Source: Hoeflea prorocentri (GTDB lineage: Bacteria > Pseudomonadota > Alphaproteobacteria > Rhizobiales > Rhizobiaceae). Taken from it: a stretch of 64,000 nucleotides of DNA. This document shows, in pieces, positions 4,243 to 8,340 of the stretch. Position 1 is the stretch's first letter, and the number at the start of each line of letters is the position of its first letter. The stretch is from NCBI RefSeq assembly GCF_027944115.1, contig NZ_JAPJZI010000001.1:806001-870000 (forward strand), read 5' to 3'. The position numbers and the translations under genes are program-made. Under the pieces are notes generated by a model. The model was not told the DNA's origin. It did no database searches and saw nothing but the letters and a program-made list of their open reading frames with translations.

Positions 4243-5214
4243 TCAGCTTGTCGCCTTGGCGCTGCGTTGCAATGCCGACAGCGCCCAGGCGGCGAAATCC
4301 TCCATGGCTCCGCGGGCGCCGGGCGGGGCCGATTCGTTCAGCGTCTCGTGTCGCAGGCCTTCATAGATGCGTCCCGTCACGTCCTTCTTCCCATGGCTGC
4401 ACAGTTTCCTGGCGAACCACGTTACCGCTCCCCCCTTTGCAGTGGCCGGGTCCTGGCCGCCTCCCACCAGATGGACCGGCATTGTGTTCGGCAGGGCGGC
4501 CAGAGCACGCGGATTGCTGCCGCGAAACGCCATGGCAAAAATGTCCTGCCAAAGGCTGACCGTCGCATCCCATCCGCAAAGCGGGTCTTCGATATAGGCC
4601 GAGACAGCTGCCGGATCGTGCGAGAGCCAGTCGAATGGCGTTTCAGCTTTCCTGATCGCCTTGCCCCAGGCCTGGAATGTCAGCCTGGGCAGCATGCCGC
4701 TTGGAACGTCGGATCCTTTCAGCATCCTTTCGGCAGCAAGAAGGGCCTGGGCAATGCGGCCTTCAAAGCCCATCTTGAAGTTGGAATTCCAGACAGCGAG
4801 CGCTGCCTGCCTGTCAGGATGGGAGAGCGCGAAGTTCATGGCGATGAGGCCGCCCATGGAGTGTCCGAAGGTGATCAGCGGCGCATCCGCATACTGTTTT
4901 TGCGCGTGCAGATTAACGGCAAGCGTATCGGCGACGGTTTTCTCCCAACCGCGTCCCGCCGCTGCTGTGGCAAAGCGGCCCAGCGGCGCATCGTCTGCCC
5001 TTGTGTGTCCGTGTCCGCGGTGATCGTGTGCAAAAACGGCAAAGCCGATCTGTGACAGGTACTGCGCAAAGGGCAGGTAGCGTGCCGCATGCTCGGCCAG
5101 GCCGTGGTTGATCTGCACGACGGCGCGCAGTCTGTCCTTCGGGTGCATGTGAAAGAGGTTTAGGTTTGCCCCGGTCGGTGATGCAAGGGTGGTCTGTTCG
5201 TCAAAACCGCTCAT
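4243..5214 (-). CDS. Alpha/beta hydrolase, lysophospholipase/monoacylglycerol lipase type
   Basis: A 323-residue serine hydrolase of the Hydrolase_4 (PldB/monoacylglycerol lipase) group. The nucleophile elbow GHSMGG, the oxyanion region INHGLAEHAARY and the Asp/His region near the C-terminus (VGGGQDPAT, then EGLRHETLNE) complete the expected triad. There is no signal peptide, so it should be cytoplasmic. I prefer ATG at 5214 (MSGFDEQ); an in-frame GTG at 5229 would add five residues, and neither has a strong ribosome site. It follows the DUF6969-like gene on the same strand with a 42-bp gap and may share its transcript. Confidence 0.87.
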   Translation of the reverse strand: MSGFDEQTTLASPTGANLNLFHMHPKDRLRAVVQINHGLAEHAARYLPFAQYLSQIGFAVFAHDHRGHGHTRADDAPLGRFATAAAGRGWEKTVADTLAVNLHAQKQYADAPLITFGHSMGGLIAMNFALSHPDRQAALAVWNSNFKMGFEGRIAQALLAAERMLKGSDVPSGMLPRLTFQAWGKAIRKAETPFDWLSHDPAAVSAYIEDPLCGWDATVSLWQDIFAMAFRGSNPRALAALPNTMPVHLVGGGQDPATAKGGAVTWFARKLCSHGKKDVTGRIYEGLRHETLNESAPPGARGAMEDFAAWALSALQRSAKATS

Positions 5215-5256
5215 GACGCGAGCTTGCACGCGCCGGAGAAAAAGCGCAATGCCACG

Positions 5257-5994
5257 TCAGGCGTCGAGAGCTTCCTCTATCGCGGCAATCTGACCGCCGA
5301 GATCAAAAGGGAAAGAGGACAGGACTTCGATATCCTCGTCTTCGGAGAACCCTTCCGGGTCCTTTTCGCGAAGCCGGGCAATTTCGATGTCGCGCTCGCG
5401 CAGGCTCCATTCGATCTGGGGCCGGAAAAGTTTCAGCGCCGCGACCAGCCATCTGCTGGTCAGCGCATATTCCTCATTGTCGAGATCGAAGAAATCCAGA
5501 AGCCTGATGACTTCTTCGGCCGGATATTGCCATTCCATCGCAACCCAGCGGTTGACGGTGAAAATGCGCATCGGCGTACCGGACTGGTCGAAGGAGATGG
5601 CCACCAGATGGCAGAGCCCGCCAAGCTCGAAATCGGGCTCGGGCGGCAAGGCGATGGGCTCTATACCGTCCTGTACATGTTCGGTGTAGACAAACAGGTG
5701 GAAGTGGCCGTGCTCGGCCCAAGGGCGTGCCTCCGGATCCTCCGAATGGGCGTGATAAAACCACAGGGCGCCCTTTTCCCGGTCATGCACATCGCCGGGT
5801 GGATAGTGCTGCCACTGGGTGAATGCATCCGGCGCCGTTGAGCTCAGCACGTCGATCAGGATATGTTTTTCCTCTTGCGCCGCCTGCTCGAGCACGCCGA
5901 TCATGTCATCCGCCGCCTTCTGCATGGCCTCAAGGTCGGACCGGGGCAGGCTTTTGAAGTCAATTTTCGGATCGTCGCGTACCGGGCTGTTCAT
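5257..5994 (-). CDS. Conserved protein of unknown function (probably DUF6969 family)
   Basis: A 245-residue soluble acidic protein without signal peptide or membrane spans. I recognise it as resembling the DUF6969 group but cannot give a function. Visible features are a Trp/His-rich central part (WQHYPPGDVHDREKGALWFYH, then HGHFHLF), which could bind metal, and a mixed acidic C-terminal tail. I prefer ATG 5994; a TTG at 6006 is possible. It lies directly behind the Cys-Gly-Ala repeat peptide gene (gap 119 bp containing a strong stem-loop) on the same strand, and this pairing is the main hint to its role. Confidence 0.7.
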   Translation of the reverse strand: MNSPVRDDPKIDFKSLPRSDLEAMQKAADDMIGVLEQAAQEEKHILIDVLSSTAPDAFTQWQHYPPGDVHDREKGALWFYHAHSEDPEARPWAEHGHFHLFVYTEHVQDGIEPIALPPEPDFELGGLCHLVAISFDQSGTPMRIFTVNRWVAMEWQYPAEEVIRLLDFFDLDNEEYALTSRWLVAALKLFRPQIEWSLRERDIEIARLREKDPEGFSEDEDIEVLSSFPFDLGGQIAAIEEALDA

Positions 5995-6070
5995 TACGTC
6001 GGCCAAGGGAAATCATCTTTCGAAAAGTCTTATCAGGAAATATGCCAGGGGAACACAAGGTTCCGGCAGA

Positions 6071-6104
6071 CGTTTGCCGGGAACCTGACGGCTCCCGGCA
6101 AACG
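6071..6104 (-). terminator. 12-bp perfect stem-loop after the Cys-rich peptide gene
   Basis: Perfect inverted repeat with arms 6071-6082 and 6093-6104 (core GTTTGCCGGGA / TCCCGGCAAAC) and a 10-nt loop, starting 10 nt past the stop of the peptide gene. On the minus strand no T-run follows the stem, so it may be an imperfect terminator, an RNA-stabilising 3' end, or a differential-expression element between the peptide and the following gene. Confidence 0.65.
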
Positions 6105-6113
6105 GGAAACGCG

Positions 6114-6347
6114 TCAGTTGGTCTTTTTTGCTCCGCAGGCGCCACATGCGCCGCAGGCACCACATGCGCCGCAAGCCTTTTTCTTGGCGCCACAGGCACC
6201 ACAGGCACCGCAAGCAGCACAGGCGCTGACCTTGGTCGATCCGCAAGCACCGCAGCCTGCAACGGCCGGCGTAGTCGCAGCAACCGCAGCAGCCAGGCCG
6301 CCACTGACGACCATCATTGCGAGAGCTTTTTTGGATTTGCTGTTCAT
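6114..6347 (-). CDS. Small secreted Cys-Gly-Ala repeat protein
   Basis: A 77-residue protein. Residues 1-30 form a convincing Sec signal peptide (basic MNSKSKK, a hydrophobic core, then AVA). The rest is almost only Cys, Gly, Ala and Lys: runs of the tripeptide CGA, two of them ending in a short lysine stretch (GAKKKA, GAKKTN), with 11 cysteines in about 45 residues. The ribosome site AGAGGAG is 7 nt before the ATG, so translation is credible. Cys-rich low-complexity secreted peptides in other bacteria include metal-binding or post-translationally modified (RiPP-like) precursors; no MNIO/DUF692 enzyme, the usual partner in bufferin-type systems, is in this window. Function is unknown: periplasmic metal or redox buffering is my inference. 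Confidence 0.8.
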   Translation of the reverse strand: MNSKSKKALAMMVVSGGLAAAVAATTPAVAGCGACGSTKVSACAACGACGACGAKKKACGACGACGACGACGAKKTN

Positions 6348-6368
6348 AGAATTCTCCTCTGGAATTTC

Positions 6369-6385
6369 GCCGAAACTGTTTCGGC
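6369..6385. promoter_or_regulatory. 17-bp perfect palindrome before the Cys-rich peptide gene
   Basis: GCCGAAAC-T-GTTTCGGC: two perfect 8-bp arms around one base, centred 30 bp upstream of the peptide's ATG and ending about 10 nt from its ribosome site. The position suits a repressor operator over or just after the promoter, or an RNA hairpin in the leader. The cognate regulator is not identified. Confidence 0.6.
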
Positions 6386-6690
6386 CCGCCCCAACCTAGC
6401 CGAAGGAATTGTAAACTGGTGTCACGATGAGATTGCGGAAAATCACGCTTTTGCGAGGCCGGCGTGAGGGGTGGGCAGATTGGGGACAAATAGTCACCAA
6501 GTCTTACGGTTCGGCATTTTGCGTGACTGATTGTGGTGGATTGGCGGGTATGCTCAGCACGGCGCCGTCCCGGGCCGAGCCTGCCGCTTGCTCCCTATAG
6601 GTCGCATATTTGCGTTGCCCTTGGGGCACGGTTTGCATAAAAGCGGGGCAATCCCGATTTCATCCGTATTTATGAGGAAGTTTGCGCGCG
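6386..6690. other. Divergent intergenic region between the Cys-rich peptide gene and ettA
   Basis: About 305 bp without a credible gene. It must carry the promoters of the peptide gene (leftward) and ettA (rightward). GAGGAAG at 6674-6680 is the likely ettA ribosome site. I see no further repeats, terminators or RNA genes. Confidence 0.5.
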
Positions 6691-8340
6691 ATGGCACGCC
6701 AGTTCATTTATCACATGGCCGGCCTGAATAAGGCCTATGGCTCCAAGAAAGTCCTGGAGAATATTCACCTGTCCTTCTACCCCGATGCCAAGATCGGGAT
6801 TCTCGGACCGAACGGTGCCGGCAAATCCACGGTTCTGCGCATCATGGCAGGCCTTGATACCGAGTTCAGCGGTGAAGCCTGGGTGGCTGAAGGTGCAACT
6901 GTCGGCTATCTGCCGCAGGAGCCTGAGCTCGATGAGACAAAAACCGTGGCGGAAAACGTCATGGAAGGCGTGGCGGAGCAAAAGGCCATTGTCGACCGCT
7001 ACAACGAGCTGATGATGAACTATTCCGACGAGACTGCGGAAGAGGGCGCCAAGCTTCAGGACATTATCGATGCGCAGAACCTTTGGGATCTCGACAGCCA
7101 GGTCGAGATGGCCATGGATGCGTTGCGCTGTCCGCCCGGCGACAGCCCGGTCGCCAACCTGTCGGGTGGTGAAAAACGCCGTGTGGCTCTGTGCCAGCTG
7201 CTGCTTTCCCAACCGGATCTGCTGCTGCTTGACGAGCCGACCAACCACCTTGATGCCGAGACGATCGCATGGCTGGAAAAACACCTGCGGGAATATCCGG
7301 GCGCCGTCCTGATGATCACGCACGATCGCTACTTCCTCGACAATGTGACAGGCTGGATCCTGGAGCTCGACCGGGGCAGGGGCATTCCGTACGAGGGCAA
7401 CTATTCGGCCTATCTTGAAAAGAAGGCCAAACGCATGGCCCAGGAGGGCCGCGAAGAGGCCAACAGGCAAAAGGCGATGTCACGCGAGCAGGCCTGGATC
7501 GCGTCCAGTCCGAAAGCGCGCCAGGCAAAATCCAAGGCGCGTATCAGGGCCTATGACGAACTGGTCCAGTCGGCTGGAGACCGGAGGCCGGGCGATGCGC
7601 AGATTCTTATCCCCGTCGGTGAGCGCCTCGGGCAGGTGGTCATCGAGGCCGAGCACCTTTCGAAAGGTTATGGCGACAAACTGCTGATCGATGATCTGGA
7701 ATTCAAGCTGCCGCCCGGCGGCATAGTCGGCGTTATCGGACCGAACGGCGCCGGCAAGACGACCTTGTTCCGGATGATCACCGGCCAGGAGACACCGGAT
7801 AACGGATCAATCACTGTCGGAGATACCGTTGATTTGAGCTATGTCGATCAAAGCCGGGATGCGCTCGACCCGGACAAGACGGTCTGGGAGGAAATCTCGG
7901 GCGGCAATGACATCATCAAGCTTGGACCGCATGAGGTGAATTCGCGAGCCTATTGCTCGAACTTCAATTTCCGCGGCGGCGATCAGCAGCAAAAGGTCGG
8001 TACGCTCTCGGGCGGTCAGCGCAACCGTGTGCATCTCGCCAAGATGCTGAAATCGGGCGGTAACGTGGTTCTGCTCGACGAACCGACGAACGATCTCGAC
8101 ACAGAAACGCTCGCGGCGCTTGAAGATGCGCTTGAGAGTTTTGCCGGCTGTGCCGTTATCATAAGCCACGACCGCATGTTCCTCGATCGGTTGGCGACGC
8201 ATATACTGGCGTTTGAGGGCGACAGCCACGTGGAATGGTTCGAAGGCAATTTCGAGGACTATGAGCAAGACAAGATCCGCCGGCTGGGTCCTGAAAGCGT
8301 CAATCCGAAGCGGGTCACCTACAAGCGGCTGACGCGCTGA
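6691..8340 (+). CDS. ettA: ABC-F translational regulator EttA
   Basis: A 549-residue ABC-F protein: two ATP-binding domains and no membrane part. Walker [10 protein letters not shown] appears at residues 39-47 and again in the second half (GPNGAGKTT); signatures are NLSGGEKRR and TLSGGQRNR, with the linker (residues ~245-325) rich in charged residues as in the P-site tRNA interaction motif. EttA binds the ribosomal E site and gates entry into elongation according to the ATP/ADP ratio. The start at ATG 6691 matches the family N-terminus ([12 protein letters not shown]); a TTG at 6682 would add only three residues. Length equals that of E. coli EttA. An SDR gene follows after 29 bp. Confidence 0.95.

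Follow-up and report, generated by a model that had tools for sequence, protein, structure and literature searches.

Genes and Features at the Locus

On its minus strand, the window, i.e. the whole stretch of 64,000 nucleotides that was analysed, carries an ATG-initiated gene (6114..6347, stop included) encoding a peptide of 77 aa with 11 Cys in Cys-Gly-Ala (CGA) repeats, as claimed in an initial annotation of this DNA. Encoded from 6347 to 6114, the peptide reads MNSKSKKALAMMVVSGGLAAAVAATTPAVA-GCGACGSTKVSACAACGACGACGAKKKACGACGACGACGACGAKKTN. Its N-terminus, MNSKSKKALAMMVVSGGLAAAVAATTPAVA, is basic, then hydrophobic, and ends in A-x-A; read by eye, it resembles a Sec signal, and this putative signal or leader would cover residues 1-30 (6258..6347, minus strand) with a cut before GCGAC, also placed by eye, leaving a mature part of CGA repeats with two Lys runs (6117..6257, minus strand). 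As the peptide matched 0 families of Pfam and NCBIfam at E up to 1, its assignment to a known peptide family was dropped. In an alignment of 10 homologous loci, the leader is conserved and the number of CGA repeats differs, the frame being always kept, and dN between the mature part and those of nine relatives is 0.02-0.18 with synonymous sites near or at saturation. Five comparisons have a finite dS and give a dN/dS of 0.02-0.04, the other four being saturated at synonymous sites; a chance ORF is ruled out by these ratios where dS is finite, and the CGA-repeat peptide is, to judge from its codons, under strong purifying selection. Alignment and dN/dS comparison together bear out the maintenance of the repeats in frame in relatives that the initial annotation had looked for. 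One match among the relatives of the peptide comes from Streptomyces (L002).

The ribosome site of its own that had been attributed to the peptide is the motif AGAGGAG (6354..6360, minus strand), identical in 10/10 loci. The upstream 17-bp palindrome, GCCGAAACTGTTTCGGC (6369..6385, no strand), is likewise exact, its 8-bp arms flanking one base; by eye, the arms CCGAAA...TTTCGG are retained in 8/10 loci, the exceptions being L157 and L159, and as RNA the palindrome is weak, the 56-nt leader having a z of -0.69 vs. shuffles. Further upstream lie a putative ECF-type promoter-like pair TGACACC-N15-CGGCTA (6397..6424, minus strand) and a conserved box CTCGCAAAAGCGTGA (6443..6457, minus strand), exact in 8/10 loci. 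By eye, this box is followed in the 10 loci by GTGAC (six loci), GTTAC (two) or GTGAG (two), and next downstream of this GTGAC-type step come an element ending in CTA or TTA (CGTCTA in 4/10) and then AGAGGAG in 10/10. The pair TGACACC-N15-CGGCTA, a pattern picked after seeing the alignment, has one match in 64 kb for 0.02 expected and loosely resembles an ECF sigma promoter. Regarding such promoters, PMC3511200 describes in Caulobacter a sigma-F sequence GTAACC-N16-CGAA driving DUF2282/DUF692/DUF2063 operons under chromium and cadmium.

Downstream of the peptide gene and before the next gene, an RNA stem-loop spans 6071..6104 (minus strand), with arms at 6071-6085 and 6090-6104 forming 15 pairs, including one G-U, on the transcribed strand. 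The stem-loop of the initial annotation, given there as a perfect 12-bp one, is real and longer than described. Its folding energy is -30.7 kcal/mol (z -5.5); among 10 homologous loci, 85.6% of the pair cells are standard, a value that falls to at most 48.2% when the stem is slid, and both sides have changed at 7/15 pairs. A standard terminator was rejected, no T-run following the stem-loop; because the structure sits between genes without a T-run, a role as a processing or mRNA-stabilising element would be likelier. The search for a known RNA family in 5200-7000 was dropped with 0 matches up to E 1.

The conserved protein reported behind the peptide on the same strand is a member of DUF6969 (PF22308, E 1.2e-58), scoring 198.5 bits for a Pfam curated cut-off of 27. 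The gene (5257..5994, minus strand) encodes 245 aa from an ATG start deduced from L001, the start in the ORF list being TTG at 6006. Counted from this TTG, invariant His residues stand at 85, 87, 101, 103 and 133; in domain numbering, P52, H68, H70, G83, H84, H86, H116, F132, N135, V138, R188 and D189 are invariant across 56 of the 76 DUF6969 sequences. With five histidines invariant, the protein may have a metal site. No signal sequence is evident by eye, and a sequence search of solved structures returned no clear relative (best E 0.46). Regarding its distribution, DUF6969 was found in 41/297 genomes of the order, 20/398 of the phylum and 23/101 related genomes, in 0/14 named control genomes, in 167 plasmid records (mostly Sinorhizobium, Burkholderia and Azospirillum) and, in a scan of viral contigs, as one partial sequence (L165). 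In the literature searched, no paper contained the word DUF6969 or paired 'cytochrome P460' with 'cysteine-rich', and nothing related by title was retrieved for NPCAAK, NPCNPC or CNPCAA repeats.

A Unit of Two Genes

The peptide has a match at E up to 0.01 in 16/101 relatives. In the 10/101 where this match is at E 2.2e-6 or better, DUF6969 adjoins the peptide in all 10, in agreement with the conserved neighbourhood anticipated earlier; in the weakest of the ten (G046), the match crosses a stop codon and a 53-aa Cys-rich signal-bearing ORF is present there. The six weak matches (G039, G042, G047, G049, G064 and G093; E 1.5e-4 to 0.009), all in genomes without DUF6969, were treated as chance. 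Besides, all seven other genomes of the window's genus carry both peptide and DUF6969. The codon pattern CGACGACGA occurs in 10/101 related genomes, all 10 DUF6969-positive, for 0 with the reversed control pattern, and all 36 sites listed fall within ~3 kb of a DUF6969 gene.

Ten genomes without DUF6969 have the ABC-F gene. In three of these 10 (G019, G021 and G022), the hydrolase gene is divergent and, from the aligned ends, ~150 bp from ABC-F, the pair being missing; in G014, G018 and G053, the hydrolase is 2-3 kb from ABC-F with neither peptide nor DUF6969 matched between; in the other four, no hydrolase was seen in the short stretch covered. Across the genomes compared, the peptide and DUF6969 are shown to be present or absent together, and they constitute the unit. 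The protein clusters of hydrolase and TerC do not extend beyond the lineage of the window, and the hydrolase can persist in genomes that lack the pair; both genes, which lie behind DUF6969, were therefore rejected as parts of the system. They seem to reflect the general synteny of the region, and the description of the peptide as the head of a whole locus was too broad.

DUF6969 and Putatively Exported Cys-Repeat Proteins in Proteobacteria

The pairing at large was assessed on 76 loci, namely the window, L001 and 74 places from searches of the order, the phylum and the relative genomes, many of the latter being drafts; G281 and G318 were left out as belonging to the same genus as two loci kept, and loci that share a genus cannot be counted as independent. 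Each locus, of ~10 kb with some shortened by contig ends, was scanned on both strands for ORFs in which a Cys-repeat stretch comes after a signal-like start, the thresholds being fixed after the first repeats had been seen. The 452 kb of control DNA combined the rest of the window with 20 segments, each of 20 kb, taken from DUF6969-positive genomes. At a threshold of at least 3 Cys per 24 residues, 61/76 DUF6969 loci are positive vs. four matches in the 452 kb of control, which corresponds to 87 matches in ~747 kb where ~7 are expected from the control rate. With 4 Cys, 50 loci stand against one control match and, with 5 Cys, 44 loci against none; counted by genus, 36/47 are positive at the 3-Cys and 29/47 at the 4-Cys threshold. 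At least two of the matches counted (L063 and L139) were judged spurious, and 15/76 loci were missed by the loosest scan, of which four were recovered by eye (L082, L085, L091 and L144); among the scan-negative loci, L056 and L137 are at contig ends and L092 is partial. For Azospirillum brasilense p3, a coarser look revealed no Cys-repeat ORF near DUF6969.

The co-occurrence above chance that the initial annotation had set as a test is found for two repeat types: CNPCNPC codons are present in 13/297 genomes of the order, of which 11/13 are DUF6969-positive vs. 41/297 overall (p 6e-9, kinship ignored), and CGA x3 is present in 10 genomes, 10/10 DUF6969-positive vs. 23/101 (p 6e-8, kinship ignored), a genus-level test giving 3/3 genera (p 0.004). 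As exceptions, G096 encodes a CNPC-repeat P460-like protein (L190:7356-8897) with no DUF6969 detectable, G210 has CNPCNPC codons but no CNPC-P460-type protein seen, and one CNPCNPC match in G244 (C66), among the matches listed, lies apart from its DUF6969. From these scans and counts, the DUF6969 family is shown to be usually accompanied, across Proteobacteria, by Cys-repeat proteins that are putatively exported. The two are very probably functional partners, and the earlier view of the downstream protein as a handling partner thereby gains strong support from its co-occurrence with Cys-repeat proteins. DUF6969, so far a domain of unknown function, is thus given a context, that of diverse and apparently undescribed exported Cys-repeat proteins.

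These partners are of several types. Short peptides just upstream of DUF6969 have CGA repeats in the window and CNPCAAK, CGAKCGA, CCAAEG or CAACAAG repeats elsewhere. CNPCAAK repeat proteins can end in a C-terminal cytochrome P460 domain (PF16694, above cut-off in L058 and L148, below in L053), and NPCAAK repeats can be joined to a SoxA/TsdA-type cytochrome c domain. NPCAP repeats are joined to a phosphatase-like domain, ANPCAA peptides are on the strand opposite DUF6969, PCAAG peptides sit between a YeeE-type sulphur transporter and DUF6969, and NPCGP and TPCGL repeats were also seen. The largest partners reach 774 aa and 111 Cys (L061 and L059). Both proteins, L059:1776-3875 (111 Cys) and L061:3401-5722 (110 Cys), have a signal-like start, and their CNPCAAK-type repeats are accompanied by a C-terminus that resembles cytochrome P460. 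In 31 of 33 proteins, each weighted once (L055 and L142, out of frame and giving no Cys, being excluded), the residue preceding Cys is P or A in 83% and the residue following it is A, G or N in 90%.

On the DUF6969 tree, partner architecture requires 18 changes vs. 48.9 in shuffles, 0/200 of which were as low, in a test on 75 rows (the partial L092 excluded) with type labels and genus numbers assigned by hand, L001 as its own genus and the bootstrap unsettled. On this test, DUF6969 clades are shown to follow partner type. Among the short-peptide rows, 16/17, window included, fall in one supported set, with L143 outside. The second DUF6969 copy of the window's genus (G001, G003, G004, G006 and G007) adjoins a P460 repeat protein and falls elsewhere in the tree.

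Relation to Known Cys-Rich Systems

Bacterial metallothioneins and copper storage proteins are rich in Cys, presumed to be soft-metal ligands, a feature that the window peptide would share. Unlike metallothioneins, the CGA peptide has CxxC-spaced tripeptide repeats, a signal-like N-terminus and a dedicated partner gene; searched against Pfam and NCBIfam to E 1, it also matched no metallothionein model. Small SbtA-type peptides with Cys-Gly repeats, which carry thio(seleno)oxazoles, are tied to a radical SAM maturase; the window peptide is similarly small with Cys-Gly repeats, and radical SAM is absent among the families listed for the seven window proteins scanned.

The closest parallel is with the MNIO-dependent (DUF692) bufferins, captophorins and oxazolins, which PMC12452194 presents as exported Cys-rich RiPPs with fusions to, and clusters with, cytochrome c, FGE-sulfatase and sigma-factor genes. 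According to PMC13097082, the captophorin enzyme FonB prefers a small residue after Cys. The window peptide has in common with captophorins and bufferins repeated Cys in a small-residue context and a dedicated adjoining partner, and its start, by eye, has features of the Sec-like signal of their precursors (PMC12452194, PMC13097082); as in those systems, DUF6969 partners are fused to or near cytochrome c, FGE-sulfatase and sigma-factor genes and include very long members. It differs from them in its partner, which is DUF6969 and not MNIO plus DUF2063, and in lacking both a Pfam match and an EGKCG motif, none being found in its sequence; it is accordingly neither a DUF2282 nor an EGKCG-repeat precursor. 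No DUF2063 or PME partner was found among the seven window proteins scanned.

Proposed Function and Alternatives

Taken together, these findings point to a so far undescribed system by which exported Cys-repeat proteins would be made or handled, probably for binding metal ions. In the mechanism that we infer, the CGA peptide would be made with a Sec signal doubling as leader, and DUF6969, with no signal seen by eye and five invariant His that likely form a metal centre, would act on the Cys repeats in the cytosol prior to export, either by covalent modification or by maintaining them in a reduced and loaded state. Once exported to the periplasm or envelope, the product may be a multi-thiol or Cys-derived heterocycle ligand that buffers a soft metal, copper being the likeliest; the DUF6969 of relatives would serve longer Cys-repeat domains attached to cytochromes. 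This explanation as a whole, i.e. a module of precursor and DUF6969 partner making an exported soft-metal ligand, has in our estimation an even chance of being right, and the same balance applies to soft-metal buffering as the end purpose of the system. Covalent modification of Cys by DUF6969 is a plausible step to which we give slightly less than even credence. Still more tentatively, DUF6969 might be a new family of His-rich metal-dependent enzymes, unrelated to MNIO, whose substrates would be the Cys residues of [A/P]-Cys-[A/G/N] repeats in proteins exported by Proteobacteria at large, up to the ~110-Cys domains on cytochrome P460, its products being a new class of ribosomal, modified metal ligands. 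If DUF6969 does modify Cys repeats, there would be a second, independent enzyme route to exported Cys-derived metal ligands beside that of MNIO.

The neighbour genes give hints in two directions, as seen in a census of 129 proteins, 126 of them hand-picked from 266 candidates, the two family lists, of 61 and 89 entries, being considered down to the 25th. Among the families listed, cytochrome P460, SoxA/TsdA cytochrome c, FGE-sulfatase and sigma-70 occur in partners or neighbours, and the company of cytochromes, FGE-sulfatase and sigma-70 hints, by analogy, at a metal or redox role. In the window itself, the only metal-related neighbour is the TerC-family gene two genes behind, which we take to be metal-related, and no copper gene is present among the seven proteins scanned. 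Of note, SUMF1/FGE-like proteins were seen near DUF6969 in 11 loci (L058, L059, L060, L061, L068, L070, L072, L074, L132, L133 and L135), the assignment being Pfam-checked for L072. On Skermanella mucosa pSM-3 (L168:7004-9668), a factor of the sigma-70 family and a gene of the NrsF family are found near DUF6969, an arrangement reminiscent of the metal-responsive regulation of bufferins.

The other direction is sulfane-sulphur handling, where the Cys repeats would take up or carry persulfide sulphur and DUF6969 would load or unload them, in connection with thiosulfate uptake and rhodanese. Although unlikely in our judgement, this alternative is a serious one because sulphur transport is the commonest neighbour among the families listed (Sulf_transp, 16/129) and rhodanese the second (8/129); the same list has SoxA/TsdA-type cytochrome c in four proteins and a BLH-type phosphatase domain in two, presumably L079 and L083 with their NPCAP repeats. 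On S. meliloti 1021 pSymB (L166, 1083809-1098321), a rhodanese-like frame, a YeeE-like transporter, a PCAAG peptide and DUF6969 follow one another by eye, the last three in the same order as in S. medicae. The gene table, incomplete, has no gene entered at this pSymB row. Such a neighbourhood fits sulphur handling as well as metal; yet it is limited to particular DUF6969 clades, and 0/7 of the window proteins scanned is a sulphur gene. As S. meliloti 1021 is a laboratory standard, its pSymB row makes the question directly testable.

As another alternative, the action of DUF6969 might be non-enzymatic, that of a chaperone or metallochaperone under which the long Cys repeats stay reduced, unfolded or loaded with metal up to their export by Sec. 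That the partners are so varied in sequence and size, from short peptides to 774 aa and 111 Cys, would suit a chaperone, and metal could be carried by the five invariant His. Indirectly, the invariant R188-D189 and the dense HxH...HGHFH...H pattern nevertheless resemble an active site more than they do a holdase, and we regard a purely non-enzymatic role as improbable, to the same degree as sulphur handling.

Far less probable than either is the possibility that the peptide is a captophorin or bufferin modified in trans by the MNIO of the genome, with DUF6969 as accessory. The putative Sec-like signal and the Cys-Gly dyads of the window peptide speak for it, as do an MNIO in the window genome and in 9/10 genomes with CGA x3, and AKCGA is, according to PMC13097082, one of the common motifs tried as captophorin substrates. 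Besides, L143 (1701-5630, G682) is a natural hybrid linking the DUF6969 and bufferin systems, a Buf1-like precursor (by eye), MNIO, DUF2063 and DoxX directly preceding a CGAKCGA peptide and DUF6969. Against this, the only MNIO of the window genome (C1:112747) is ~700 kb from the window peptide and has its own company at L222:2196-3497 (C1 ~112.7-114.0 kb), where it appears to form an ordinary Buf1/MNIO bufferin cluster with a Buf1-like precursor, a DUF2063-like gene and a DoxX-like gene, these three identified by eye. No MNIO (PF05114) is present in the window cluster, the profile built here finds MNIO within ~5 kb in just 1/76 DUF6969 loci, and the alignment of the DUF6969 and MNIO profiles gives a 0.3% probability of relation. 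Furthermore, G015, G058, G066, G080 and G082 have DUF6969 and Cys-repeat proteins and are outside the 62 MNIO-positive genomes. As a separate observation, a DUF6969/CNPCAAK-cytochrome cluster lies at most 10 kb from a Buf1-like/MNIO cluster in L223 (G061:C2:168000-180000).

Lastly, an unmodified, exported metallothionein-like thiol buffer with DUF6969 merely as a co-regulated neighbour is highly improbable, for while the repeats alone could bind metal, the pairing persists across differing genomic surroundings and peptide types.
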